In this document: piece after piece, positions 2,467 to 15,302 of the stretch
Position numbering within the stretch: position 1 is the first letter of the stretch
How the letters are laid out: the number at the start of each line of letters is the position of its first letter
Assembly (NCBI RefSeq): GCF_035658495.1
Contig: NZ_CP141945.1
Location: 1,477,501 to 1,541,500, forward strand
Reading direction: 5' to 3'
Source: Novosphingobium sp. RL4
GTDB taxonomy: Bacteria; Pseudomonadota; Alphaproteobacteria; Sphingomonadales; Sphingomonadaceae
DNA: 64,000 nt
The notes under the pieces: model-generated
What the model was told of the DNA's origin: nothing
Databases searched by the model: none
What the model saw: the letters and a program-made list of their open reading frames with translations, nothing else
Program-made: the position numbers and the translations under genes

Positions 2467-4035
2467 ATGCCGGGAAAAATCGATAAGGTCATTGTCACCA
2501 ACTTCGGTGCGCTCCATGGCAAGTATGGCACATCTTATGCCAACGTCCACACCGCGCTCACCCGGTGGATCCAGGCTGACCTGCAGCGCGGATTGATTAC
2601 CGAGGTCGTCGGTATCGATGACGCTGTCGCCATGCAGGCCGCCGGCGGATCCGCGGTTACGGACGCTCTCGACTGCGCGCAGAACAAGCAGGCTGTCGAC
2701 GAAGTCTATCGCGCCTTCGCGCCTGACTATATTGTTATCCTGGGTTCCATCGACGTGATCCCGCACCAGGACATGCTGAACCCTCTATACACAGGCCCCG
2801 GTGGCGACGATCCGGACGAGCACGCGTTTGGTGACCTACCCTATGCCTGCGACGTGCCCTACGGCCATGACATCTCGGCCTTCAAGGGTCCCACCAGGGT
2901 CGTCAGTCGTCTTCCAGACCGAACCGGTGCGCAAGATCCGCAGAGACTCGTGGACCTGATAGAGGCGGTCATTCGCCATCACCCGCGGCCTCGCGCCGAC
3001 TTCCAAGACTATCATGCGGTATCAGCCGAGGTATGGAAGGATTCGACTCTGCTTTCGGCCAGAAACATGTTCGGCTCGGACAGCGACCTTCAGTTGGTTC
3101 CACCCGCGGGGCTGCCATGGCCCGGTGCGCGCTTGGCCCGCCTGGTGCACTTCTACAACTGCCATGGCGCCTCCGTGGATCCTCAGTTCTACGGTCAGCG
3201 CGGCACGCAATATCCGCCGGCATTGAACAGCCAGGATCTGGCGGGAAATGTGACCGATGGGACGGTTGTCACGGCGGAGTGCTGCTATGGTGCCGAACTC
3301 TACGCGACGAGCGCGGTCCAACCGGTCGCGCCCACGTGCAACAGCTACCTCGAGGCGGGCGCAATCGGCATGTGGGCCAGCACAACGATTGCCTATGGCC
3401 CGGCATCCGGCAACGGCCAGGCGGATCTGATCACGCAGTTCTTCATCACGGAGGTCTTAGCTGGCGCATCGACGGGACGCGCGGCTCTTGAGGCGCGTCA
3501 GCGCTTCGTGCGCGCCGCCTCTCCGGCTGGCCCCGAGGACCTGAAGACTCTCGCGCAGTTCAACCTCTATGGCGACGCGTCGGTGGTCCCGGTCGATATA
3601 CCAACAGCGACGAAGGCGCCTCCCGGAACCGCGGAATCGGTCGCCCAGCGCGCGACCCGGGTGGACCGGCGCCTGTTGCTCGCACGCCAAGGCGTTTCCT
3701 TGCTGGCATCCGAACCTGACCTCATAGCGAGCCAAGAGCTGGCCTCGGACCTAATCCTCGGCCAGCTGCGCACCCACGTCGATGGCGAACGCGAACGCGA
3801 GCGCGAGCGCGAGCGCGAGCACGTCGGGCCTGTGCTCGGATTTCGCCTGCGTTTTCCGGATCAGGGCTTCCTCGCTCATTCGCTCAATGAGATGCAGGAC
3901 GCGAGCGACGGATACGTCGTCGCGTTCGTCCGCGTTCCGAGTCCCGAGGATGCCCCGGTCCGGCCCGTCAAGCTCCTCGTGGGGCGTGTCCAGGGTGGCC
4001 AGGTCGTCCGCGTATCGACCGTGGTGAGCCGGTGA
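2467..4035 (+). CDS. Caspase-fold, peptidase C25-like protein
   Basis: The 522-aa protein has the layout of clan CD (gingipain C25/caspase fold) peptidases. An early strand (KVIVTNF) is followed by PDYIVILGSIDVIP and LPYACDVPYG, then a catalytic His candidate in FYNCHGA (His233) and a Cys candidate in TAECCYG (Cys273, or Cys272). I see no signal peptide, so it is probably cytoplasmic. ATG2467 is preferred over an upstream start at 2407 because it follows a GGGGGA/GAGGG ribosome binding site and matches the domain start. A hexanucleotide tract encodes an Arg-Glu repeat near residue 440. It is the first gene of the quinoprotein operon and could be the maturation or leader-cleaving protease of that system; that role is inference. 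Confidence 0.7.
   Translation: MPGKIDKVIVTNFGALHGKYGTSYANVHTALTRWIQADLQRGLITEVVGIDDAVAMQAAGGSAVTDALDCAQNKQAVDEVYRAFAPDYIVILGSIDVIPHQDMLNPLYTGPGGDDPDEHAFGDLPYACDVPYGHDISAFKGPTRVVSRLPDRTGAQDPQRLVDLIEAVIRHHPRPRADFQDYHAVSAEVWKDSTLLSARNMFGSDSDLQLVPPAGLPWPGARLARLVHFYNCHGASVDPQFYGQRGTQYPPALNSQDLAGNVTDGTVVTAECCYGAELYATSAVQPVAPTCNSYLEAGAIGMWASTTIAYGPASGNGQADLITQFFITEVLAGASTGRAALEARQRFVRAASPAGPEDLKTLAQFNLYGDASVVPVDIPTATKAPPGTAESVAQRATRVDRRLLLARQGVSLLASEPDLIASQELASDLILGQLRTHVDGEREREREREREHVGPVLGFRLRFPDQGFLAHSLNEMQDASDGYVVAFVRVPSPEDAPVRPVKLLVGRVQGGQVVRVSTVVSR
3787..3820 (+). repeat. In-frame hexanucleotide tandem repeat
   Basis: Two GAACGC units followed by three GAGCGC units and a partial one encode alternating Glu-Arg in the C-terminal part of the caspase-like protein. 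Because the unit is six bases, copy-number change would lengthen or shorten the charged tract without shifting the frame. Confidence 0.75.
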
Positions 4036-4093
4036 CCATTTCTTCCGGCGCGCCGCGATACCATTCCGGATGCAAGTGCATTAGGCTCGTCCC

Positions 4094-4330
4094 ATGGAGG
4101 AACTTACTGGTCTCGTCACGTCCGGGGTGTTCGCGCCTGGCTCGAAGAGCGAGCGGCGCGGCGTCTATCTCGACACCGCGGCCGGCCGTTTCGTTCTGCG
4201 GCGGCCGGGTGCGAACGCCTTCAGCGATCCCGTGCTTGAGGAACTGGTCGGACGCCGGATCACCGCCTTCGGAGAGACCCGGGACTACGTCCTGCTCCTG
4301 GCTGACTGGCGCGCGGTCGACGACGACTAG
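4094..4330 (+). CDS. Small protein of unknown function, 78 aa
   Basis: The gene sits 58 bases after the caspase-like gene and about 100 bases before the ferritin-like gene, on the same strand. The product is acidic at its C-terminus (ending in DDD), contains no Cys, and its sequence (for example GVYLDTAAGRFVLRR) looks like a small beta barrel or sandwich. It is too Cys-poor to be a Qhp-type cross-linked subunit. It could be a chaperone, an inhibitor of the neighbouring peptidase, or an accessory subunit; the sequence does not decide. Confidence 0.6.
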   Translation: MEELTGLVTSGVFAPGSKSERRGVYLDTAAGRFVLRRPGANAFSDPVLEELVGRRITAFGETRDYVLLLADWRAVDDD

Positions 4331-4432
4331 CGCCTCCGACAACTGGTCGGCGCTGATCGTTGTGCGATCGTGCCGGTCCCGCTCTCCGATGGGACGTCAC
4401 GCTTAGAGAAAACTGGCTTGGGGGATTTCCGA

Positions 4433-5887
4433 ATGCGAAGTCGTGTGACATTCCAGCTGCAACGGATCCTCGAGCAGGCCCATGAGGCCGACCTCGCGCA
4501 GGCCCACACCTTCTCGAAGTCCTTGGGAGTAGGCGCGGGATCGAAGAAGCACGTCGATGTGCCGGACGGCTTCTCGCCCCACGACTACGCGGTCTTCCTC
4601 CTGCACGTGGCTGCCGAGATCGAGCACGGCCTGCTCGTCCAGTATTTGTTCGCCGCCTATTCGCTTGGCGGCCCGCAGGTGCCCGCCGAACACCACGATA
4701 AGGTGGCGCGCTGGCAGGCCGTGCTCCTCGGCATAGCACGGGAGGAGATGGGGCACCTCGTCACGGTCCAGAATCTCCTTAAGCTGCTTGGCGGCCCGAT
4801 CAACCTCGAACGCGACGACTTCCCGTGGGATACGCCATTCTATCCCTTTCCGTTCTCTCTCGAGCCGGTGAGCCTCGGATCGCTCGCCCGCTACGTGTGC
4901 ATCGAGAGTCCCGAGACGTGGCCCGATCCATGGGCGAAGAGACGTGCGGAGATCGAGGGGATAGGGTTTCCCGGCGGCGCCAGCGACTTCAAGCGCGTCG
5001 GTCTGCTCTACGAAACGCTGAAAAACCTGGTCGGCGACAAGACGCTGATTCCCGACGATCTCTTCCATGCCGACACGCTCAGCTTCCAGGCCAGCTTCGC
5101 CGAGTGGGGACGTGGCTATGCGGCTGGCGCGCGTGGCGCGACGGAACCTGGAGCGAGGGTGCCGGACGTCCTGATCCACACCGCTTACTCCCGTTCGACC
5201 GCACTGGATGCGCTCGAGGCGGTCGCCGAGCAGGGGGAGGCATCGCACGCCGACGGCGACAAGGATCCTGCCCCTTCGCACTTTGAGCGGTTCATGGGAC
5301 TATTCCTGGAGATCGAAGCCGTCACGGGCTGGACTCCATGGCGTCCCGTTGCCGCCAATCCCCGAGCGGTCGGGGATCCCGACGCGGTGCCCGGCACGAC
5401 CTACATCGGCAATCCAGTGGCGCGGGTCTGGGCGCGTCTGCTCAACCTGCGCTACCGGATGCTGCTTTCCTACATCGCCCATAGCTTCCGAATCTCCGGC
5501 GACTACACGTCGGCGGACGGCCTGACGCGAAGCGCGGTGCTTAATCGCGCGTTCGGGGAGATGTATAATCTCCGGGCCATCGCCAACATCCTCGTCTCCA
5601 TGCCGGCCGACGACCCCAAGCAGCCGGAACGCGCGGCGCCGAGCTTCGAGCTTCCCTACTCGATGGATCTACCTATGCTCGACCGGGACGCCTGGCGGCA
5701 GCACATCGACCTCCTTCAGGCGTCGGCCAAGCTGATCGGTCAGATCCATGGAACCGCCGGCTCCGCCGCCGACGCGTATCTGGATTCGCTGCTTGCCCTG
5801 GATGGGCAGGCGATCGCGACCTTCGAGGCGGCGGTCCGGGGCAGCCGCGGCCCCGGTCTCGCTTACAGCGTGGGGGGACGGGCATGA
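4433..5887 (+). CDS. Ferritin-like protein of the VioB/RebD (iminophenyl-pyruvate dimer synthase) type
   Basis: The 484-aa product matches the ferritin-like domain found at the C-terminus of VioB and RebD and in many stand-alone bacterial proteins. A helix carries AAEIEHGLLVQYLFAAYSL and a second carries IAREEMGHLVTVQNLLKLLG, giving the paired Glu and ExxH metal ligands. In VioB/RebD this domain takes part in oxidative coupling of amino-acid imines; here the substrate is unknown. ATG4433 is chosen because TGGGGGA lies about eight bases upstream; the longer GTG4370 form lacks one. The stop overlaps the next start by four bases (ATGA). The VioB N-terminal extension is absent, so it is a stand-alone domain. 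Confidence 0.75.
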   Translation: MRSRVTFQLQRILEQAHEADLAQAHTFSKSLGVGAGSKKHVDVPDGFSPHDYAVFLLHVAAEIEHGLLVQYLFAAYSLGGPQVPAEHHDKVARWQAVLLGIAREEMGHLVTVQNLLKLLGGPINLERDDFPWDTPFYPFPFSLEPVSLGSLARYVCIESPETWPDPWAKRRAEIEGIGFPGGASDFKRVGLLYETLKNLVGDKTLIPDDLFHADTLSFQASFAEWGRGYAAGARGATEPGARVPDVLIHTAYSRSTALDALEAVAEQGEASHADGDKDPAPSHFERFMGLFLEIEAVTGWTPWRPVAANPRAVGDPDAVPGTTYIGNPVARVWARLLNLRYRMLLSYIAHSFRISGDYTSADGLTRSAVLNRAFGEMYNLRAIANILVSMPADDPKQPERAAPSFELPYSMDLPMLDRDAWRQHIDLLQASAKLIGQIHGTAGSAADAYLDSLLALDGQAIATFEAAVRGSRGPGLAYSVGGRA

Positions 5888-6639
5888 GCATCCTGGAGCT
5901 TCGCATCCTACCGCCACTTTCGGTCGCCCGCCTTGGCGCCTCGGCGACACCCTTGGAGAGCTATCGGATCGAGGTCGATGACAAGCATCCCCTCGGCTAC
6001 CGCAACGTGGTCCCCGACGAGACGTTGGAGCTGAGCAAGGAAACGGGTGAGATCGTCCGATGCTACACACCGAAGCGCGTGAAGTTTCGCGATGGCGACG
6101 ATGTCCGGCCGGTGGCGCCGTTCCTCGAGGTGTTTGCGCGGACGTCCGAAGACGTGCTTGAGCCGCTGACGGTCGATCTTCTGGAAGCGCACGGCCTGAA
6201 GCCGGCGGACGTGAACTGGACCGTCCACCTCGGATGCCGCAAGATCGAGCGGCGCACGTTCGACAAGAATGATCGAATCGAGGCGATCCTCAAAGTTGGC
6301 GACCACGCTCGGCACAGGGTCGATGCGACCTGCGCCAACTTTCGTGACGGCATGACCCTTCCGATTGGATGGGTGCAGTATGTTCGCCCCAACGAGGACT
6401 TCCCGGAGATCCGGCTCCGCTTTACGCCCGCCGCCGGACTGGTCTACGGCGCAAGTCCGACCGGCGCCGTCTTCGATACCAAAGGCCCCGACCCCGCGCA
6501 CACCGATCCGAACGTGCCCCCTGAGCGCATCATCTACGATCCCAGGAAGGGCAACTGGCTGGGTTATGTCCAGATAGAGGCCTTTTCCCACCTGTTTACG
6601 AACCCTGGCAACATCTCGCCCAGAATGACGAAGGTGTGA
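5884..6639 (+). CDS. LodA/GoxA-like quinoprotein, N-terminal part (split gene 1 of 3)
   Basis: This 251-aa protein resembles the N-terminal domain of LodA/GoxA family amino-acid oxidases. It begins with a strand and PLSVARLGAS (family pattern IGIARLGNS), then APFLEVFA and VNWTVHLGCRKIERRT (Trp112). In known LodA-type enzymes these elements belong to one chain of about 700 residues that also carries the CTQ (cysteine tryptophylquinone) cofactor; here the reading frame stops and the next gene starts in a GTGA overlap. The C-terminus (GNWLGYVQIEAF) still ends at a natural domain edge, which argues for a designed split rather than a random nonsense mutation. Confidence 0.7.
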   Translation: MSILELRILPPLSVARLGASATPLESYRIEVDDKHPLGYRNVVPDETLELSKETGEIVRCYTPKRVKFRDGDDVRPVAPFLEVFARTSEDVLEPLTVDLLEAHGLKPADVNWTVHLGCRKIERRTFDKNDRIEAILKVGDHARHRVDATCANFRDGMTLPIGWVQYVRPNEDFPEIRLRFTPAAGLVYGASPTGAVFDTKGPDPAHTDPNVPPERIIYDPRKGNWLGYVQIEAFSHLFTNPGNISPRMTKV

Positions 6640-7265
6640 GCTGCGGCTATTTCGACGACGAGTGCGATGGGGTCGTGACTGTGGCCCTGGAAATCGATGG
6701 CAAGTCCCTGACGGCGTTCGCCCGCATCGGTGCGGGCCCGCCGACGTTTGCGCCGGACACGATCCCCATTCGCACGGTGGCCGACGAACTCGAACAGATC
6801 GCGTTTGGGGTCGAGCACGACGGGATGGCGACGCTCGCTGACGCGGAGGAGATTCTTCGTCGCGCCGTGGAGACCGTGCGGCTATTCAACACGGCGGCGC
6901 TCAACGGCAACACGGTCAAGGGCCGCACCAACCAGACGAGCACCATGGTGCGCCAGGACTCGAACGACTTCGGTCGCTACTTTGAGCCGATCATGGCGCC
7001 GGCGATCGTCGACAATCATGCCATCCTCGCGCTCCACCAGAACATCCTGACCGCGCTGCGTAGCGGCACCGGCGCGTGGTTCGCGGATGCCCTCCGCAGA
7101 CCCGAGCAGATCGGGGATCTCTCCGATATCGGCCGCCGCAAAATGCCCGCGATGATGCGCGGCGCCGACGGACGGCATCTGGTGTTGACCCGCCGGCAGA
7201 TCGATGCGGTCGTCTCGGCCGCCATGGGCAGCCTTTTCTCCGATCCGACCGAGGTGTCCGCATGA
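6636..7265 (+). CDS. LodA/GoxA-like quinoprotein, middle part (split gene 2 of 3)
   Basis: The 209-aa product starts with GTG inside the stop of the preceding gene (GTGA) and continues where a LodA chain would continue: CGYFDDECDGVVTVALEI corresponds to the GYxDDxxDGPV strand of LodA-like proteins, followed by an APPxFAP-like segment (GPPTFAPDTIPIRTV). The second half is helical. Its stop overlaps the next start (ATGA). Read together, the three genes add up to 752 residues, close to a full-length LodA. It has no catalytic motif of its own and is most likely a structural piece of a heteromeric enzyme. Confidence 0.65.
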   Translation: MSCGYFDDECDGVVTVALEIDGKSLTAFARIGAGPPTFAPDTIPIRTVADELEQIAFGVEHDGMATLADAEEILRRAVETVRLFNTAALNGNTVKGRTNQTSTMVRQDSNDFGRYFEPIMAPAIVDNHAILALHQNILTALRSGTGAWFADALRRPEQIGDLSDIGRRKMPAMMRGADGRHLVLTRRQIDAVVSAAMGSLFSDPTEVSA

Positions 7266-8140
7266 CCAAGATCTCACCGAGCAACCTGGCGGCGCAACTC
7301 AACCACCGCAGCCGAGGCAATCCGTGGAACACGCTGCCTGTAACTGCGATATCCAACTGCTTCCCCGGCCTCGAGTTCGATTTTCGGGTCATATGGCGCA
7401 GGATTTTCGAGGGTTTGACCCTGATCGAATGCCATAACCTCGTGCTCGACGGGGACGGCCCTCTCGCCGACATGAAGGGTCATCGGCTGCTGGCAATCGA
7501 GGATCCCGGCGCAGGCAAGGGACCGTTGCCGATGGCCGTCGAGACGCAGGGCGTCCAGATGCCGGGTTACGAGGGGGCCCTCGGCAATCCGGATCACCTG
7601 AACGGTGTTTCCTTCATGGAGTGGGCGAACAGCCTGGCGAGGATCCACGCCGCGCAGGGTCGGGTGCTCGTGGGCTACTTCACGCCGGAACCTTCATCGG
7701 TGGAAGTCCTCTTCCCCACTGATCCGGCCGAGGTCGCGAAGCTGCCCAAGTTCGACCTCAAGGTCCGTCCGATCTTCGAGAGCAGCGCCGTGGACGGCAA
7801 GTCGATGGCGACGCTGTCTCAGGCGCTGATCGAGCCTGGGGAGCTGACGCAGGGGCTCTGCTCCCCTTGGCAGAACGACTATCGCGAATGTGCGTGCTAC
7901 TACTGGGCCGCGAGCCGCCCCGACTTCGTGAACGTGGTCGATGGCCCGGACGGCACCAGCGTGGGTGACAACTGGATGGCCATCGAGCGCCCCCCGGGCG
8001 GCGGCTACATCCTCGACGATCGGAGCGATGGCGACGTCTGGAGCTACGACCAACTGTTTCAGAACTGGCAGGGCTTCCTGAAGTTCGTGGTCGGAGGCTC
8101 GGAGGAGCAGGATCGGCTGGACAGGGAGGATCGGTCGTAG
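7262..8140 (+). CDS. LodA/GoxA-like quinoprotein, catalytic C-terminal part with CTQ-type Cys/Trp (split gene 3 of 3)
   Basis: The 292-aa protein carries the signature around the CTQ-forming Cys of LodA/GoxA oxidases: SPWQNDYRECACYYW then ASRPDFV, matching the family pattern PWQxDFxxC...WxPaxRPD. The candidate modified Cys is Cys210 (Cys212 is close). Trp candidates for the quinone are Trp238 in GDNWMAIE, Trp260 and Trp271. In LodA the Trp is oxidised by the flavoprotein LodB and cross-linked to Cys; a LodB-like gene lies two genes downstream. Expected chemistry is oxidation of an amine or amino acid giving peroxide, but substrate and activity are unproven. No signal peptide is visible. Confidence 0.7.
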   Translation: MTKISPSNLAAQLNHRSRGNPWNTLPVTAISNCFPGLEFDFRVIWRRIFEGLTLIECHNLVLDGDGPLADMKGHRLLAIEDPGAGKGPLPMAVETQGVQMPGYEGALGNPDHLNGVSFMEWANSLARIHAAQGRVLVGYFTPEPSSVEVLFPTDPAEVAKLPKFDLKVRPIFESSAVDGKSMATLSQALIEPGELTQGLCSPWQNDYRECACYYWAASRPDFVNVVDGPDGTSVGDNWMAIERPPGGGYILDDRSDGDVWSYDQLFQNWQGFLKFVVGGSEEQDRLDREDRS

Positions 8141-8144
8141 CGCC

Positions 8145-9488
8145 ATGACCTTGGCCACCGCCATCATCGACGCTTCACGCCCCCGCTCACGCGACGCACA
8201 TGTGCTCCGGTGGGACGGTGCCGCTCAGCTTCTCCTTCCGGACGGTAGCCAACTGTTCGACATCGACGAGGCGCTTGCCGACGAACTCACGCTGGCCGGC
8301 TCGTCCGCAGACGGTGCCGCCACCGCTGCGATCCTAGCACGCCTCGGTCTCGAGCCGCGCGCGGACCGCTGCGCGTCGACCCCGGACGATCGACGCGTGC
8401 GGGCGATCTCGCTCGCTGTTGCGCAGAGTTGCAATCTCGGGTGCGGCTACTGTTACGCCCAGGGTGGATCGTTCGGTGGGTCACCCAAGGGGATGGACCT
8501 GGGGACCGCGCAGGCCGCGATCGACATGCTTTTGCGGGAGACCCTTCCCTACGAGCAGGTCAACATCGCCTTTCTGGGCGGCGAGCCGCTTATGGGTCGC
8601 GATGTCGTGCATGCGTCAACCCGATATGCGGTCGAGGAGGCGGCGCGGCGCGGTATCGCCGTTTCCTTCTCCATCACCACCAACGGCACCCTTGTCTCCG
8701 AGCGCGACATCGAGCTGTTTGACGCGCACCGCTTCGCCGTCACCGTCAGTCTCGACGGTGTCGGCGGCGACCACGACCTGCAGCGTCCCTTCAAGGGTGG
8801 CCGCGGAAGCTACGCGCGGATCATGGAGCGCATCGCACCACTGCTCGGCGGCGGGCGTGGCTGCCAGGTATCGGCCCGCGTGACCGTCACGCCGCGTAAT
8901 CTCGACCTGCTGCCGATGCTCAATCACTTCACGGACATCGGCTTCCACAGCGTCGGGTTCTCGCCAATGCTTTCCGCGCCCGGCGAGCAGGATGAGATGC
9001 AGGAGCGGCACCTGCACTCAATGCTCGAGCAGATGGTTTCCTGCGGCCGGGAATTCGAGGCGAGGACCGCCGCCGGCGAGCGCTACCCGTTCCTGAACCT
9101 CCTCAACGCGCTTCGCGAGATCCACCGCGGCACGCACCGCCCCTATCCCTGTGGCGCCGGGGCCGGCTACCTCGGCGTCTCTGCGGAAGGGGAGTTGGCC
9201 GCCTGCCACCGCTTCGTCGACGCGCCGGAAGGTGCGATGGGCACGCTTGCGGACGGCGTTGATCGCGAGCGGCAGGATGTCTGGCTGAACGAACGGCACG
9301 TCCACGCCCAGCCTGGATGCCGTTCGTGTTGGGCTCGCTACCTTTGCGCTGGCGGTTGCCATCACGAGACACTGAGCCGTAGCCGTCCGGCCTGCGACTT
9401 CATTCGTGGCTGGCTGCACTACGCGATCGGGGCCTACGGCCGCCTCTCGCGGACGAGGCCCGACTTCATCGGCCAACTGGTGCGGTGA
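8145..9488 (+). CDS. Radical SAM/SPASM protein, QhpD-like maturase
   Basis: The 447-aa protein has the radical SAM motif CNLGCGYC (Cys96, Cys100, Cys103) for the SAM-binding cluster, then a C-terminal SPASM region with Cys336, Cys354 (ACHRF), Cys392, Cys395, Cys401, Cys405 and a last Cys near 418 for auxiliary Fe-S clusters. The CGAGxGxLGVSAxGExxxCHRF arrangement is the one I associate with peptide maturases such as the quinohemoprotein amine dehydrogenase maturase QhpD. The first ~85 residues (LLLPDGSQLFDIDEAL) look like a small winged-helix, possibly a peptide-recognition domain. It follows the catalytic quinoprotein gene after four bases, so that protein or the 78-aa product is the obvious substrate candidate. 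Target and product are not shown by the sequence. Confidence 0.8.
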   Translation: MTLATAIIDASRPRSRDAHVLRWDGAAQLLLPDGSQLFDIDEALADELTLAGSSADGAATAAILARLGLEPRADRCASTPDDRRVRAISLAVAQSCNLGCGYCYAQGGSFGGSPKGMDLGTAQAAIDMLLRETLPYEQVNIAFLGGEPLMGRDVVHASTRYAVEEAARRGIAVSFSITTNGTLVSERDIELFDAHRFAVTVSLDGVGGDHDLQRPFKGGRGSYARIMERIAPLLGGGRGCQVSARVTVTPRNLDLLPMLNHFTDIGFHSVGFSPMLSAPGEQDEMQERHLHSMLEQMVSCGREFEARTAAGERYPFLNLLNALREIHRGTHRPYPCGAGAGYLGVSAEGELAACHRFVDAPEGAMGTLADGVDRERQDVWLNERHVHAQPGCRSCWARYLCAGGCHHETLSRSRPACDFIRGWLHYAIGAYGRLSRTRPDFIGQLVR

Positions 9489-10894
9489 CGGGCCTTACCG
9501 ACGTGATCGTCGTCGGCGGCGGTCCGGCGGGGTGCATCAGCGCGCTTGCGCTTTGTCGCCTGGGCTTGTCGGTCCGCCTGATCGAGGAGCATGTCGGCGC
9601 CAGACCCCATGTCGGCGAGGCGATCAGCGTGGCCGTTCTCCGCCAGCTCCACGACTTAGGCCTCGAAGGCATCCTAGATCGTGCCGGCTGGCAGCGGTTT
9701 TCACGGTGCGACGAGCGCTGGGCAACGGAAAGCTGGATCACGAGGGACGCACCACCGGGCGCGGCGACGTTAGACCGGGGCCGCTTCGATGCGGCACTGG
9801 TGGACATCTGTCGGGAGGCGGGTGTCGTCGTCGATCTCGGACGCCGCGCCACCACCGCCATCCGTCGGTCAGAAGGAGGTTGGAGCGTTATACTCGCGGA
9901 TGGCGAGGTTCGCGGGGCCAACTTCTTGGTCGATGCGGCTGGTCGGCGGGGCCTGTTGCCGAAGTCGCGCCGCTGGCAGGGACCGCGCACGATCGCGCTC
10001 TATGCCTATTGGAGCGGTGCGGGTCTCCCGGATCGACCCCGCATCGCGGCCGGTGGAGGCGTTTGGTCTTGGGGCGCGCCGGTCGCGGATCTGGGCTTCA
10101 ACGCTACGCTGTTCACCGATCGTCAGGCCTTGCCACGGAGCCGAGGGGATCTGCGCCAGATCTATCTCGACGGGTTGGCCGACACGGACCTCCTGCCTCA
10201 ATTAAGAACCGTCCTTTCCTGCGGCCAAGTGACCGCGTGCGACGCCAGTGCCTGGCTCGACGAGGAGGCAGTGGGCCCGGACTATATCAAGGTCGGAGAG
10301 GCGGCGCAGAGCTTCGATCCGCTAGCCTCGATGGGCGTCCAGCACTGTATCCAGTCGGCCCGTAGTGCGTCCGTCGTGGTCAACACCATCCTTCGCCGAC
10401 CCGGCTCGCAAGCCGTGGCGCGGCAATACTATGAGCAGAGGTTGGAGCGATCGGCCTGGACGCATGCCGTCGCGACCAAAGAGATCTACGGCCGGAGCGT
10501 CCACGCCGAGAAGCCGTTCTGGCGGTCCCGGTGCGCGGGCGGCGCGGCGGCTGCGCGCGTCGAGGCGCATCCCATGAGCCGTCCCAAGCCAGTTCTCTCG
10601 ACGCCCATCCATCTGGACCGAAGCCGCGTTGTGGAGGTACCCTGTCTGTGCGGTGATTTCGTCGAGCCACGCCTAGCGGTGTTGGCTGGGACCGAGGGGG
10701 AGCCTGTAGCCTTCCTCGGCGGCATTCCGATTGACATGATCGTACTAGCGATAGTGGATAGCGAAACGGTCGGGGACCTGCTGGAGGCACTCGTGCGCGG
10801 GCAAGCCGGAACTCAAGCCCACCGGGTCTGCGGCTGGCTCATCGACAAGGGAGTCGTTCAGGTGTCCGCTGTGTGCGAACAGCCACGACGATGA
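9485..10894 (+). CDS. LodB/QhpG-like FAD monooxygenase with C-terminal winged-helix-like extension
   Basis: The GTG start overlaps the stop of the radical SAM gene (GTGA). Residues 1-350 form a flavin-dependent monooxygenase of the tryptophan-hydroxylating/geranylgeranyl-reductase type: FAD Rossmann motif VVGGGPAGC near the start and GEAAQSFDPLASMGVQ near 272-287. LodB and QhpG of this class hydroxylate the Trp that becomes CTQ. After a Gly/Ala/Arg-rich linker there is an extra ~105 residues whose end (ETVGDLLEALVRG...VCGWLIDKGVV) resembles a PqqD-like winged helix, the usual peptide-binding module of RiPP modification enzymes. A fused recognition domain would fit an enzyme that must bind its protein substrate; fold and role of the extension are inference. 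Confidence 0.75.
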   Translation: MTGLTDVIVVGGGPAGCISALALCRLGLSVRLIEEHVGARPHVGEAISVAVLRQLHDLGLEGILDRAGWQRFSRCDERWATESWITRDAPPGAATLDRGRFDAALVDICREAGVVVDLGRRATTAIRRSEGGWSVILADGEVRGANFLVDAAGRRGLLPKSRRWQGPRTIALYAYWSGAGLPDRPRIAAGGGVWSWGAPVADLGFNATLFTDRQALPRSRGDLRQIYLDGLADTDLLPQLRTVLSCGQVTACDASAWLDEEAVGPDYIKVGEAAQSFDPLASMGVQHCIQSARSASVVVNTILRRPGSQAVARQYYEQRLERSAWTHAVATKEIYGRSVHAEKPFWRSRCAGGAAAARVEAHPMSRPKPVLSTPIHLDRSRVVEVPCLCGDFVEPRLAVLAGTEGEPVAFLGGIPIDMIVLAIVDSETVGDLLEALVRGQAGTQAHRVCGWLIDKGVVQVSAVCEQPRR

Positions 10895-11526: not shown

Positions 11527-11886
11527 TCAGGCTGTTCTGCCGACGGCCTTCTTTAATGCCTCGCGCAGGTGGGAAGGAGAACTGGGCTTGGGGCATATCT
11601 GCGCATCCGGATAGCGAGTGCGCAGAGCATTCTCGTTAGCGTGGCCTGAATGAAAAATAAGCGGAACTTTCATCTCCTGCATTCGATCCGCCGCCGGGAA
11701 GACTTCTCCGTCTGGGAGGCGGACATCGAGGATAGCGCAGACTGGTCGTTGACGCTCGATCGCCCGCATGGTGGCGGCAACAGTGCCGCAATGCGCGGAG
11801 ACAGCGAAACCCTCTTCGGCGATCAGATCTTCCAGATCGAGGACGACGAACAGTTCGTCCTCGACGATCAGTACGGTGTCGGTCAT
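11527..11886 (-). CDS. Single-domain response regulator
   Basis: The 119-aa product is a stand-alone CheY-like receiver: acidic pair in VLIVEDELF, phospho-acceptor Asp in AILDVRLPDGE, Ser/Thr in IFHSGHA and the Lys in ICPKPSSP. No output domain follows. The start at 11886 overlaps the stop of the kinase gene (ATGA), which is stronger than the upstream in-frame start at 11913. Single-domain receivers beside HWE kinases are common in alphaproteobacteria, often as phosphate sinks or adaptors in the general stress response. It is probably phosphorylated by the kinase encoded next to it. Confidence 0.85.
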   Translation of the reverse strand: MTDTVLIVEDELFVVLDLEDLIAEEGFAVSAHCGTVAATMRAIERQRPVCAILDVRLPDGEVFPAADRMQEMKVPLIFHSGHANENALRTRYPDAQICPKPSSPSHLREALKKAVGRTA

Positions 11887-14800
11887 CGAACCATCACACC
11901 GCCAGGCAGCCATAATCGAAGGGCAAAATGGCCATCGCGCAGTTCACGGGAAATCCGGGCACCAAGTTGCCGCGCGGAAGTGGTGACGAGCAATGTCCCG
12001 AAGCCCGATCCCTCGCCCACATCAATCGTGTCATCACCCTCTTCGTCCCACAGCAAGTCAATCCCGTCGGCGCTCAACGTCCAGCGCACTCGAAGAGTTC
12101 CCGCGCGCGGCCCCAGGACGCCGTACTTTGCGGCATTGGTCGTCCATTCGTGCAGGATGAGGGCAAGAGGGGAGAGGCAGTTGCGATCGATGTCGATCTG
12201 CGGGCCTTCGACCAGAATCCCGGATTGCCCAGCGTAGGCGGCCGTCGTCGTTTCGATGAGGGTACGAAGCGAGAATGTCTGCTGCTCGTCGCCGGAAGGC
12301 GATGCCAGGGAGTGTGCCCTGCCCAGCGCCGCGATGCGCTCGCGCAGATCCGCGCCATAGCTGCGAACGTCGTTGTGAGACCGACCGGCAACCGAAATAA
12401 TGCCGCTGACCACTGCGAACAGGTTCTTCACCCTGTGGTTCATTTCGCGCAGCATGAGGCCGCGCGTCTCAGCGACTGCATATTCGGCCGTCAGGTCGAT
12501 CGTTGCCCCCACCAAGCGGCGCGGACGCGAGTCGATGAGCCGGCCGTATGCCTTGAGCTGACGGCAGGCGGCGGCATCCTCCGCGTCGCACACCCGGAAG
12601 GCGATTTCCATGTCCTGATCGCTGTAAAGGGTATGAGCGATGCAGTCTTCGAGCGAGGCGCGATCCTCGGGATGTACCTTCGCCAGCACATGGCCGAGAC
12701 TCACATTGCCATTGGCCGGCAACGAAAGCTGGCTACGGCTCGTGGTATCGAGGATCACGTCGTCTTCATCCGGACGATACTCCCAGATCCCGATTCCGCC
12801 GGTCTTCACGGCCAGATCGAGTCTTTCGCGCTCGGCAGCCAGATCGTCTTCCATCAGCAGGGCTACGGTGATGTCGCTCAGTACCAGCGTGGCGCCATCG
12901 ATCGTCCCGTGCTGGGTCCGATAGGGCAGAACGCGCAGCGACAGGGTTCGGCCGCCGTCGCTCGTGCGAACCCGGCGGTGGAGAGGCTCGCCGCTGCCCG
13001 CCACGCGCCGCGCGTCGTCAAGGTAAGTGCTGTCGTCCAGGCGCGTTGCGACGTCTGCCAACAGGCGCCCCCGATCGGTCTGCTGCAACGGGAAAATGGC
13101 AGTCGCCGCTTCGGTGAAACTGCGGATACGAAGCTGTCCGTCGAGCACGATCACCGCCAGTTCGGTGGACTCAAAGAAGTTGCGCAAGTCAGCATTCGCG
13201 ACGGTAAGCTGGTCCACCTTGCTTTTCAGCTCGTCGTTGACGGTGGACAGCTCCTCGTTGGTGGACTGCAGCTCCTCGTTCATCGACATCATTTCTTCGT
13301 TGGAGCTTTTCAACTCCTCGTTCGCTGTCTCCAGTTCCTCAACAGCGGTGCGCAGCTTGTGGCGGGTGAGGCGAAGTTCCTCTTCCAGCGCTTCCATGTG
13401 ATCGTCGCCGCTTTCGATCTCGGTAAAGTCCGGCCCGTCGAACGGCTGAAAGGGGCCGCGATCGCGCAGGATAAGCAACAGCGAGTTGTCAGGCAACGGC
13501 TCGCAAATCGCCTCGACAGGCTGGATGCCGTAATCCGAACGCACCTCGACCTCGCGGGCCACCACCTTCTTGCGGGCATCGCGGGCCTGGCGCACGAGCG
13601 GGCCGAGCACGTCGCGCAGGCCCGGCTTGGCTAGCGAGATCGCGCTGGTGCCGCCCGTGCGGGTTACCGGGAAATCGAAATAGCGGCTCAACTTGCCATA
13701 GGCGGCAAGCACCGCGCCGTCCTGATTGAGTACCATGGCAGGCGGCGCATAACGATCGACCAGGCGCTGGACGGCTATGCCGGCGTCGGACTGCTTGCGC
13801 CTGACATCCCGATTGCTGCTATCTTCGCGGTGACGCTGAACGCCTCGCTCTCCGCCCGGCAAGTCGATCGGGTATCGGGGGTTGCCGGGGGCGCGCTCGA
13901 AGATGCGGGCGTGATTATCCAGAGCCGGGAACAGATGGTCGAAGCGGCCGATGCTTTCCGAAGGCCCGAGGAATAAGTATCCGCCCTCCCGGATCGCGTA
14001 ATGCAGGATCGGCATTACCGATTGCTGCAGGCGATCGTCGAAGTAGATCAGAAGGTTGCGGCAGGAAACAAGGTCGATCCGCGAGAACGGCGGATCCTTT
14101 ACAACTGAGTGGTTGGAAAACCGGATAAGATCGCGGATTTTGTTCGAGATTGCGAATTTCTCCCCATGCAGCGTCGTCCACCGCTCGCGCATGGGCGAAG
14201 GGATATCAGCCAGCGCGGAGGCGGGATAAATTCCCTCCCGCGCGATCTGCAGCATCTGCTCGTCGATGTCGGAGGCGAATATTTGCACCGGGTTGGCGAA
14301 ATTCATGCGCCGTGCCGTCTCGGCGAACAGCATGGCGATGCTGTATGCCTCCTCCCCGCTGGAACAGCCCGGGATCCAGACCCTGATGTCGTCGTCGCTG
14401 GAACGGTCGCGCAGTAGCGGCTCGATCACCTTCTCGCGCAGCGCGTCGAACATCTCGGGGTCGCGGAAGAACCGCGTGACATTGATCAGCAGATCGCGGA
14501 ACAGCGCCTCGCATTCGCCTGAATCCGATTGCACGCGTTGGAGATAGCCACTGGCCGAATCGATGTTCAGCACGTGCATGCGCCGCTCGACGCGCCGTAC
14601 CAGCGTCGAGCGCTTGTAGCCCGAGAAATCGTGACCGACGGCCTTGCGCAAGGTGGCGCACAGGTCATCGACATGATCGGCGACAAGTTCGGCTTCGCGT
14701 TCGTGGGGCTCGCCTCGGCGTCGGGCGAAGAACGCGCCGAGGCAATCGAGGATCTCCGACGGCTGCTTGACGTAATCCACGAGGCCTGTCCCGACCGCGG

Positions 14801-15302
14801 ATACGGGCATCCCATCGTAGCGCGCGGTTTCCGGTGTCTGGACGACGCAGACCCCGCCTTGCTCCTTGATCGCACGCAATCCCGTCGATCCGTCGGCTCC
14901 CGTACCGGAGAGGATCACGCAGGCGGCATCGGTCTGCTTCTCGGCGGCGAGCGAGATGAAGAAATCGTCGATCGGACGGCGAAGCCCGCGCGGCTGGGCG
15001 AAATCGGTCAGCTGCAGTTTGCCGTCCTGCAGCGCGAGACCGCGGCCCGGCGGTATGATGTACACGCGGTCTGGCAGCACTTCTTCGCCGCCCTCGCACT
15101 GGAGCACGTCGAGCGGGCTAGCCCGGTCCAGCAGCTGGGCCAGCATGCTCTCGTAGTTGGGGTCGAGATGCTGGACGACCACGAATGCCATTTCAGTAGG
15201 CAGTCGGGCCACCGAGAGCATCTCACGCAGGGCCTCAAGCCCGCCCGCCGATGCGCCGATCCCGACGATCGGGATACCGCGCGTCCGTTCGTCGCCGCTC
15301 AA
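11883..15302 (-). CDS. CheB-CheR-PAS-HWE histidine kinase fusion
   Basis: The 1139-aa protein joins several modules. Residues ~10-190 are a CheB methylesterase (GIGASAGG with the catalytic Ser, VVVQHLDP, ILSGTGADGS). Residues ~205-470 are a CheR methyltransferase (NVTRFFRDP, WIPGCSSGEEAYSIAML). A long Glu-rich coiled coil (repeats such as ANEELKSSNEE) precedes PAS-like segments. The C-terminus is an HWE-type kinase with EMNHRVKNLFAVV, LHEWTTNAAKYG and LLWDEEG. The CheB part has no receiver domain of its own. Start and stop overlap the LOV gene and the response regulator gene by four bases each, so the three are cotranslated. The CheB/CheR target is unknown; there are no chemoreceptor genes here. 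Confidence 0.85.
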   Translation of the reverse strand: MSGDERTRGIPIVGIGASAGGLEALREMLSVARLPTEMAFVVVQHLDPNYESMLAQLLDRASPLDVLQCEGGEEVLPDRVYIIPPGRGLALQDGKLQLTDFAQPRGLRRPIDDFFISLAAEKQTDAACVILSGTGADGSTGLRAIKEQGGVCVVQTPETARYDGMPVSAVGTGLVDYVKQPSEILDCLGAFFARRRGEPHEREAELVADHVDDLCATLRKAVGHDFSGYKRSTLVRRVERRMHVLNIDSASGYLQRVQSDSGECEALFRDLLINVTRFFRDPEMFDALREKVIEPLLRDRSSDDDIRVWIPGCSSGEEAYSIAMLFAETARRMNFANPVQIFASDIDEQMLQIAREGIYPASALADIPSPMRERWTTLHGEKFAISNKIRDLIRFSNHSVVKDPPFSRIDLVSCRNLLIYFDDRLQQSVMPILHYAIREGGYLFLGPSESIGRFDHLFPALDNHARIFERAPGNPRYPIDLPGGERGVQRHREDSSNRDVRRKQSDAGIAVQRLVDRYAPPAMVLNQDGAVLAAYGKLSRYFDFPVTRTGGTSAISLAKPGLRDVLGPLVRQARDARKKVVAREVEVRSDYGIQPVEAICEPLPDNSLLLILRDRGPFQPFDGPDFTEIESGDDHMEALEEELRLTRHKLRTAVEELETANEELKSSNEEMMSMNEELQSTNEELSTVNDELKSKVDQLTVANADLRNFFESTELAVIVLDGQLRIRSFTEAATAIFPLQQTDRGRLLADVATRLDDSTYLDDARRVAGSGEPLHRRVRTSDGGRTLSLRVLPYRTQHGTIDGATLVLSDITVALLMEDDLAAERERLDLAVKTGGIGIWEYRPDEDDVILDTTSRSQLSLPANGNVSLGHVLAKVHPEDRASLEDCIAHTLYSDQDMEIAFRVCDAEDAAACRQLKAYGRLIDSRPRRLVGATIDLTAEYAVAETRGLMLREMNHRVKNLFAVVSGIISVAGRSHNDVRSYGADLRERIAALGRAHSLASPSGDEQQTFSLRTLIETTTAAYAGQSGILVEGPQIDIDRNCLSPLALILHEWTTNAAKYGVLGPRAGTLRVRWTLSADGIDLLWDEEGDDTIDVGEGSGFGTLLVTTSARQLGARISRELRDGHFALRLWLPGGVMVR

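Follow-up and report, generated by a model that had tools for sequence, protein, structure and literature searches.

A stretch of 64,000 nucleotides of the Novosphingobium sp. RL4 genome (contig NZ_CP141945.1, positions 1,477,501 to 1,541,500; hereafter the window) contains an operon of eight open reading frames (ORFs), named A to H, six of which (C to H) form a conserved cassette. The core of this cassette consists of five proteins, namely a ferritin-like protein (C), the N-terminal part of a LodA-like scaffold (D and E together), its catalytic part (F), a radical S-adenosylmethionine (SAM)/SPASM protein (G) and a QhpG-type flavoprotein (H). The core cassette probably makes a LodA-fold amine or amino-acid oxidase that bears cysteine tryptophylquinone (CTQ) and is matured by a pair of enzymes of the type acting on quinohemoprotein amine dehydrogenase (QHNDH). 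Two routes to CTQ are known: in LodA/GoxA it is made with a flavoprotein, and in QHNDH a radical SAM enzyme and QhpG act on the small subunit. The cassette suggests an unrecognised way of making cofactors from protein. A preliminary description, made from the sequence alone, had proposed a hybrid maturation system for a protein-derived quinone. This idea fits well with a LodA-fold part accompanied by QhpD-like and QhpG-type proteins and with the residues that F would need, and it is strengthened by the residue evidence below; the role given to a peptidase did not stand.

Conservation of the core and active segment of F

Genome contigs were scanned with F alone, which yielded 128 relatives, and the best 80 were fetched (L001 is excluded from the locus counts). 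In 75 of these 80 loci, C to H are all on one strand and in the same order, and no match starts more than 5 kb from F. Because this order repeats in loci picked by F alone, the association of the genes is not due to chance, and the presence of G and H is informative since neither was used for the selection. Taken singly, C was found in 77/80, D in 79/80, E in 80/80, G in 78/80 and H in 77/80 loci. The five incomplete loci are L023, L078 and L080, which are short contigs or end at a contig end, L031, in which C and D were not found, and L008, discussed below. The possibility, raised in the preliminary description, that homologues would not occur together elsewhere is thus answered by the five-protein core, which does co-occur; the joint occurrence of all nine families that it had also proposed to look for holds for this core and not for A and B (1/80 loci).

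Judging from genus names, the hosts of the core presumably belong to the Pseudomonadota, Bacteroidota, Acidobacteriota, Myxococcota, Planctomycetota, Actinomycetota and Verrucomicrobiota. F was found in none of 60 relatives of the window strain (36 of the same genus and 24 of the same order), which makes the distribution of the cassette patchy and suggests that it may be mobile. Relatives of F are also present on 18 plasmid records, from Bradyrhizobium, Rhizobium, Mycetohabitans and others. Among ORFs of at least 90 amino acids, every other neighbour family is limited to at most 13 of 86 loci (80 genome and six plasmid loci).

A second form of the cassette (type II) is encoded at six plasmid loci (L085, L117, L118, L119, L120 and L121) and has its own radical SAM clade. 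The ferritin-like domain was seen to be fused to F in five of the six (by blastp or Pfam; L118 had no C match by blastp and was not Pfam-scanned), and L117 has a further ferritin-like domain fused to its E part. The place of Trp238 of F is taken by Phe in two of the six. A link between the loss of Trp238 in L085 and a loss of QhpG was considered and rejected, as L085 keeps a weak QhpG-like protein (61 bits) and L117 a better one (98 bits).

According to the available text of PMC4417212, the CTQ of LodA is formed by Cys516 and Trp581. A chain alignment places W581 of LodA at the second W of YWWPPQSPW. When 36 F proteins were aligned with 12 ordinary LodA/GoxA proteins and six of type II, Cys210 and Trp215 of F fell on the LodA CTQ pair, and the conserved Asp was matched by Asp206. 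These three residues are present in 87/87 F sequences and are putatively the CTQ Cys and Trp and the active-site Asp; the 87 rows are the window and L002 to L087, they include the type II locus L085, also counted among the six type II rows, and three of them (L006, L010, L078) hold a stop within the span. Trp238 was rejected as the CTQ Trp, LodA W581 being the Trp of YWWPP and LodA having a Tyr at the Trp238 place.

The same segment resembles the small subunit of QHNDH (QhpC, gamma), in which Cys7-Glu16, Cys27-Asp33 and Cys41-Asp49 are linked (PMC8172795, available text). Indeed, QhpC in five qhp loci, the host's own included, reads LCQPxxxDxxxCxxxCxWPxQVPD (four of them were aligned) and F reads LC[SA]PWQNDYRECxCYYWAASRPD, with few changes. 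Cys27, Asp33, Cys37, Cys41, Trp43 and Asp49 of the gamma subunit correspond to C200, D206, C210, C212, W215 and D221 of F, all conserved in 87/87 sequences. Counterparts of Cys27, Cys41 and Asp49 are also present in 6/6 type II proteins, and were found in 0/12, 0/12 and 1/12 ordinary LodA/GoxA of a first set (control A4, which leaves out the partial L107 and L116, without the motif; L099 was not fetched with flanks) and in 0/11, 0/11 and 2/11 of a second set from genomes that also have cassettes, where any Cys among the six residues preceding the Trp was counted as Cys41. Against 18,950 NCBIfam models (E up to 1), the QH_gamma model matched 34 of 36 F proteins and the LodA model 28 of 36, all weakly (best 0.0033); QH_gamma also matches 3/12 ordinary LodA.

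Furthermore, the start of F follows the pattern [LI]4-x-[AP]6-x-N8-x-x-A11-Q12 (82, 84, 74, 82 and 84 of 87, respectively), and the four aligned QhpC start with MKHL[KT][PA]xNxKA[QK]. Residues 4-13 of F resemble the QhpC leader (residues 4-13), the motif being internal in fused relatives. The QhpC leader is required for interaction with QhpD (PMC7876137, available text); the leader-like start of F is a lead.

Proposed maturation enzymes, scaffold and mechanism

The best model for G is TIGR03906 QhpD (8.7e-98, 328 bits). Its CxxxCxxC motif is present in 84/84 sequences and seven further Cys in 83/84, a set that would suit two auxiliary Fe-S clusters. In a tree, core G, type II and QhpD each lie on one side of a branch (support 88/91, 96/90 and 100/100; 32, 6 and 5 rows, core G being represented by 32 of 84 rows). 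H matches NF049967 QhpG at 2.6e-83 and 280 bits, above the equivalog cut-off of 240, and reaches 104 bits with GoxB and 102 bits with LodB, far from the cut-off of 400 of each; a tree of 28 of 78 H rows, without any QhpG taken from a qhp locus, does not order QhpG, LodB and H. QhpD, QhpE and QhpG are described for QHNDH maturation in the available text of PMC7876137. When a defence library was searched with four proteins, the only matches were viperin-like ones to G.

At 14 ordinary LodA loci (about 7 kb on each side or to the contig end, by blastp), no G relative was found and an H-like (LodB) protein is present in eight; at 11 further loci, ten have an H-like match and the one G relative is MoaA.

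F matches PF18417 LodA_C (25.7 bits, cut-off 25); E shows the tail of LodA_N (0.006, 17 bits, under the cut-off of 26.3) and matches the GoxA model at 2.7e-4. NCBIfam equivalog cut-offs for LodA and GoxA are missed, with best scores of 12.1 of 600 bits (LodA, by F) and 18.9 of 750 (GoxA, by E). The modelled fold of a fused relative is GoxA/LodA-like, which is consistent with a LodA-type fold over the whole chain. D, E and F form a single ORF in 39 loci (excluding L006 and L010, in which a stop interrupts the F match), and DE and F are two ORFs in most others.

From the observed gene order, protein families, residues and predicted fold of a relative, we infer every chemical step that follows, as well as the substrate. 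G would make Cys-to-Asp thioethers in F, predicted at Cys200-Asp206 and Cys212-Asp221, which correspond to Cys27-Asp33 and Cys41-Asp49 in QHNDH gamma. H would then hydroxylate Trp215, which would join Cys210 to give CTQ. DE would provide the remainder of the LodA scaffold, and C probably deals with iron, O2 or the H2O2 that the oxidase produces.

The chances seem even that the cassette defines a third class of CTQ enzymes, namely oxidases of LodA fold in which a dedicated radical SAM enzyme, acting on a large folded protein and in many cases on an internal leader-like motif, installs two Cys-Asp thioethers that hold the CTQ segment. Such a class would be a link between QHNDH gamma and LodA/GoxA and would work with a double ferritin-like protein, the second form having the ferritin-like domain fused to F. 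If true, a widespread cassette uses QHNDH machinery on a LodA scaffold and joins both CTQ routes, the origin of tryptophylquinone enzymes becomes testable, radical SAM thioether chemistry is extended to proteins of about 290-800 residues, and many proteins annotated as hypothetical or as tryptophan 7-halogenase are accounted for.

Several observations weigh against a CTQ oxidase matured in this way. G is below the QhpD equivalog cut-off of 453 bits and forms its own clade apart from QhpD. In L008, neither G nor H is beside F and a G lies 9.7 kb upstream. Compared with QhpC, F has a CTQ Cys-Trp spacing that is shorter by one residue and a second Cys in a different place. LodA itself, without a G relative, has a Cys immediately following the Cys27 position, and single nearby Cys also occur without a G relative in L114 and L115 (before the Asp) and in L174 (just after the Trp). 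For Cys7-Glu16, the first link of QHNDH, F has no clear counterpart: Cys33 of F is present in 80/87 sequences and ordinary LodA also has a Cys nearby, so that a third thioether, Cys33-Glu38, is not claimed. The families are not separated by profile-profile comparison, in which the probabilities are weak (6% for QhpC vs F, 40% for QhpC vs ordinary LodA, in another register, and 48% for LodA vs F; profile A1 comprises 36 of 87 F rows and A3 29 of 41 fused spans, L010 being excluded for its stop, plus 24 split chains). The Foldseek TM-scores of the model are low (0.25-0.40). Finally, the D/E reading frame is broken in the window, so that the window copy itself may be non-functional.

The window operon and alternative explanations

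Eight ORFs were counted in the window (Table 1), so that the preliminary description is largely right in its observations and wrong in its nine-gene frame. Indeed, the stretch from ATG 10574 is not a separate gene, because it is in frame within H and the QhpG model spans H residues 7-452. The tight joining of six ORFs (C to H) is borne out by overlaps of four bases at C/D, D/E, E/F and G/H and a gap of four bases at F/G. Beside the operon, at window positions 11527-15302 (-), reading of the sequence by eye suggests a response regulator and a histidine kinase ORF of the CheB/CheR-PAS type.

Table 1. ORFs of the operon at window positions 2467 to 10894
ORF	Position	Strand	Description	Remark
A	2467..4035	+	C25 (gingipain-like) cysteine peptidase homologue	accessory, outside the conserved core
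A, alternative start	2407		in-frame GTG possible	
B	4094..4330	+	78 amino acids, no known family; accompanies A	accessory
C	4370..5887	+	PF12902 ferritin-like (VioB-type) protein	alternative ATG start at 4433 possible
D	5884..6639	+	LodA-like scaffold, N-terminal part; fused with E in relatives	relatives by tblastn
E	6636..7265	+	LodA-like scaffold, middle part	GTG start overlapping the stop of D
F	7262..8140	+	LodA-like catalytic part	putative CTQ pair Cys210/Trp215, Asp206; putative thioether residues Cys200, Cys212, Asp221
G	8145..9488	+	QhpD-like radical SAM/SPASM protein	
H	9485..10894	+	QhpG-type flavin-dependent monooxygenase	

D and E are in a single frame in 84 of 85 relatives having both parts, the lone exception (L078) being a 3.4 kb contig of a metagenome-assembled genome whose matches contain stops. 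The D/E split is therefore local to the window, and three separate LodA-like parts, as first described, are not a general feature. Comparison of the junction with L002, L082 and L083 places the offset in a variable loop just before GYFDDECDG. The break may be a mutation with a coupled restart or a sequencing error. It is possible, if somewhat doubtful, that the window copy is a decaying pseudo-operon whose scaffold is destroyed by this break, which would be compatible with the cassette making a CTQ oxidase. The single frame of the relatives and an offset directly before a motif speak for decay; however, every other ORF is open, E restarts at a GTG overlapping the stop of D, so that coupled re-initiation could yield a three-part protein, and the offset could also be a sequencing error.

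Turning to the maturation of F, it is rather improbable that H alone suffices for CTQ formation in F, in the way that LodB serves LodA, and that G modifies F differently or acts on another protein. LodB and GoxB are the flavoproteins named for the CTQ of LodA/GoxA in the available text of PMC7876137, and G is not a QhpD equivalog, which would both agree with H acting alone; however, G adjoins F in all but two of the 80 loci (L008, with the nearest G at 9.7 kb, and L023, at a contig end), and the extra Cys of the cassette proteins are found in 0/23 ordinary LodA and the Asp in 3/23.

The peptidase A and the small ORF B are accessory. A matches PF01364 (5.8e-6, 26.2 bits, cut-off 23), which suggests a C25 peptidase, and B has no Pfam or NCBIfam match. 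By tblastn, relatives of both are present at L002, L082 and L083 only, among 86 loci (1/80 genome and 2/6 plasmid loci for A; 1/80 genome loci for B), the A copy of L083 being on the other strand, and both also have relatives beside the type II cassette L120. A was considered as a general counterpart of QhpE, as had first been suggested, and rejected, given its rarity near the cassette and its occurrence away from it. Indeed, at L136 and L137 (Rhizobium plasmids), a C25 peptidase gene has no annotated LodA-cassette gene within 10 kb and caspase-family, chitosanase and L,D-transpeptidase genes nearby; in L137, a small ORF follows the peptidase gene. Within A, window positions 3787-3820 hold a hexamer repeat encoding repeated Glu-Arg (ERERERER).

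The modified-peptide pathway that the preliminary description offered as an alternative is weakened, as no small ORF is widely conserved beside the cassette. A pathway of the kind making ribosomally synthesised and post-translationally modified peptides, in which G and H would really act on a small peptide and the LodA-like protein would be an oxidase for later tailoring, is very unlikely: after QhpD, the radical SAM models nearest to G are peptide maturases such as PapB, but no flanking small-ORF family that could supply a RiPP or ranthipeptide precursor occurs in more than 7 of the 78 loci scanned (25-120 amino acids, ATG starts, within 1.5 kb), and B is confined to 1/80.

C matches PF12902 at 7e-32, with a score over the cut-off and an agreeing fold, and is fused to F or to E in some relatives. 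Its resemblance to VioB (TIGR04492, 46 bits against a cut-off of 1250) and its carboxylate/His set, invariant in 81/81 sequences (26 of the 81 rows were used in A6), would suit C as the true enzyme, for example in imine coupling, on a catalytically silent LodA-like scaffold, but this is highly improbable given the 87/87 conservation of the CTQ Cys, Trp and Asp and the retention of the QhpG-type enzyme in 77/80 loci.

Comparison with known systems

The hybrid cassette was not found described in the open-licence literature on LodA/CTQ together with radical SAM, including the available text of PMC7876137 and PMC8172795, its absence in print being unproven, and no open-licence paper was found that combines three of the terms ferritin-like, VioB, radical SAM and LodA. 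The available text of PMC4417212 reports that a PF12902 gene adjoins a LodA-like gene in fungi, which is the same adjacency as in the cassette; no radical SAM partner is described there, since the word 'radical' occurs 0 times in its main text.

In Bradyrhizobium barranii and Mycetohabitans endofungorum (L084, L087, L090 and L091), the plasmid that carries the hybrid cassette also has, within about 10 kb of it, an annotated LodA/GoxA gene with an adjoining flavoprotein gene. A cassette variant on a Mesorhizobium plasmid (L086), with no C relative by tblastn, is near genes for a tyrosinase, a multicopper oxidase, a cytochrome P460 and two octopine/nopaline dehydrogenases.

The cassette differs from LodA/GoxA with LodB/GoxB by its radical SAM and ferritin-like genes, by the two extra Cys and the Asp of its active segment, and by a flavoprotein that scores as QhpG, its own LodA/GoxA equivalog scores being far short.

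The host also has a separate qhp operon (G000:C2, about 779700-785600; locus L128), so that both systems are encoded in one cell. This operon encodes QhpC, a QhpD of 674 bits and an alpha subunit of 545 bits, with weaker matches for beta (63 bits) and QhpG (60 bits). None of the eight ORFs of the window matches the heme alpha or propeller beta models, which have one match each genome-wide, about 0.7 Mb away (alpha C2:783733-785349, beta C2:780829-781782). The cassette thus has a LodA scaffold in place of the heme and propeller subunits, and a G under the QhpD cut-off, whereas it shares with QHNDH the active segment LCxPxxxDxxxC...C...W.....D of F and QhpC, the QhpD-like and QhpG-type enzymes, and an N-terminal [LI]x[AP]xNxxAQ of F that resembles the QhpC leader.

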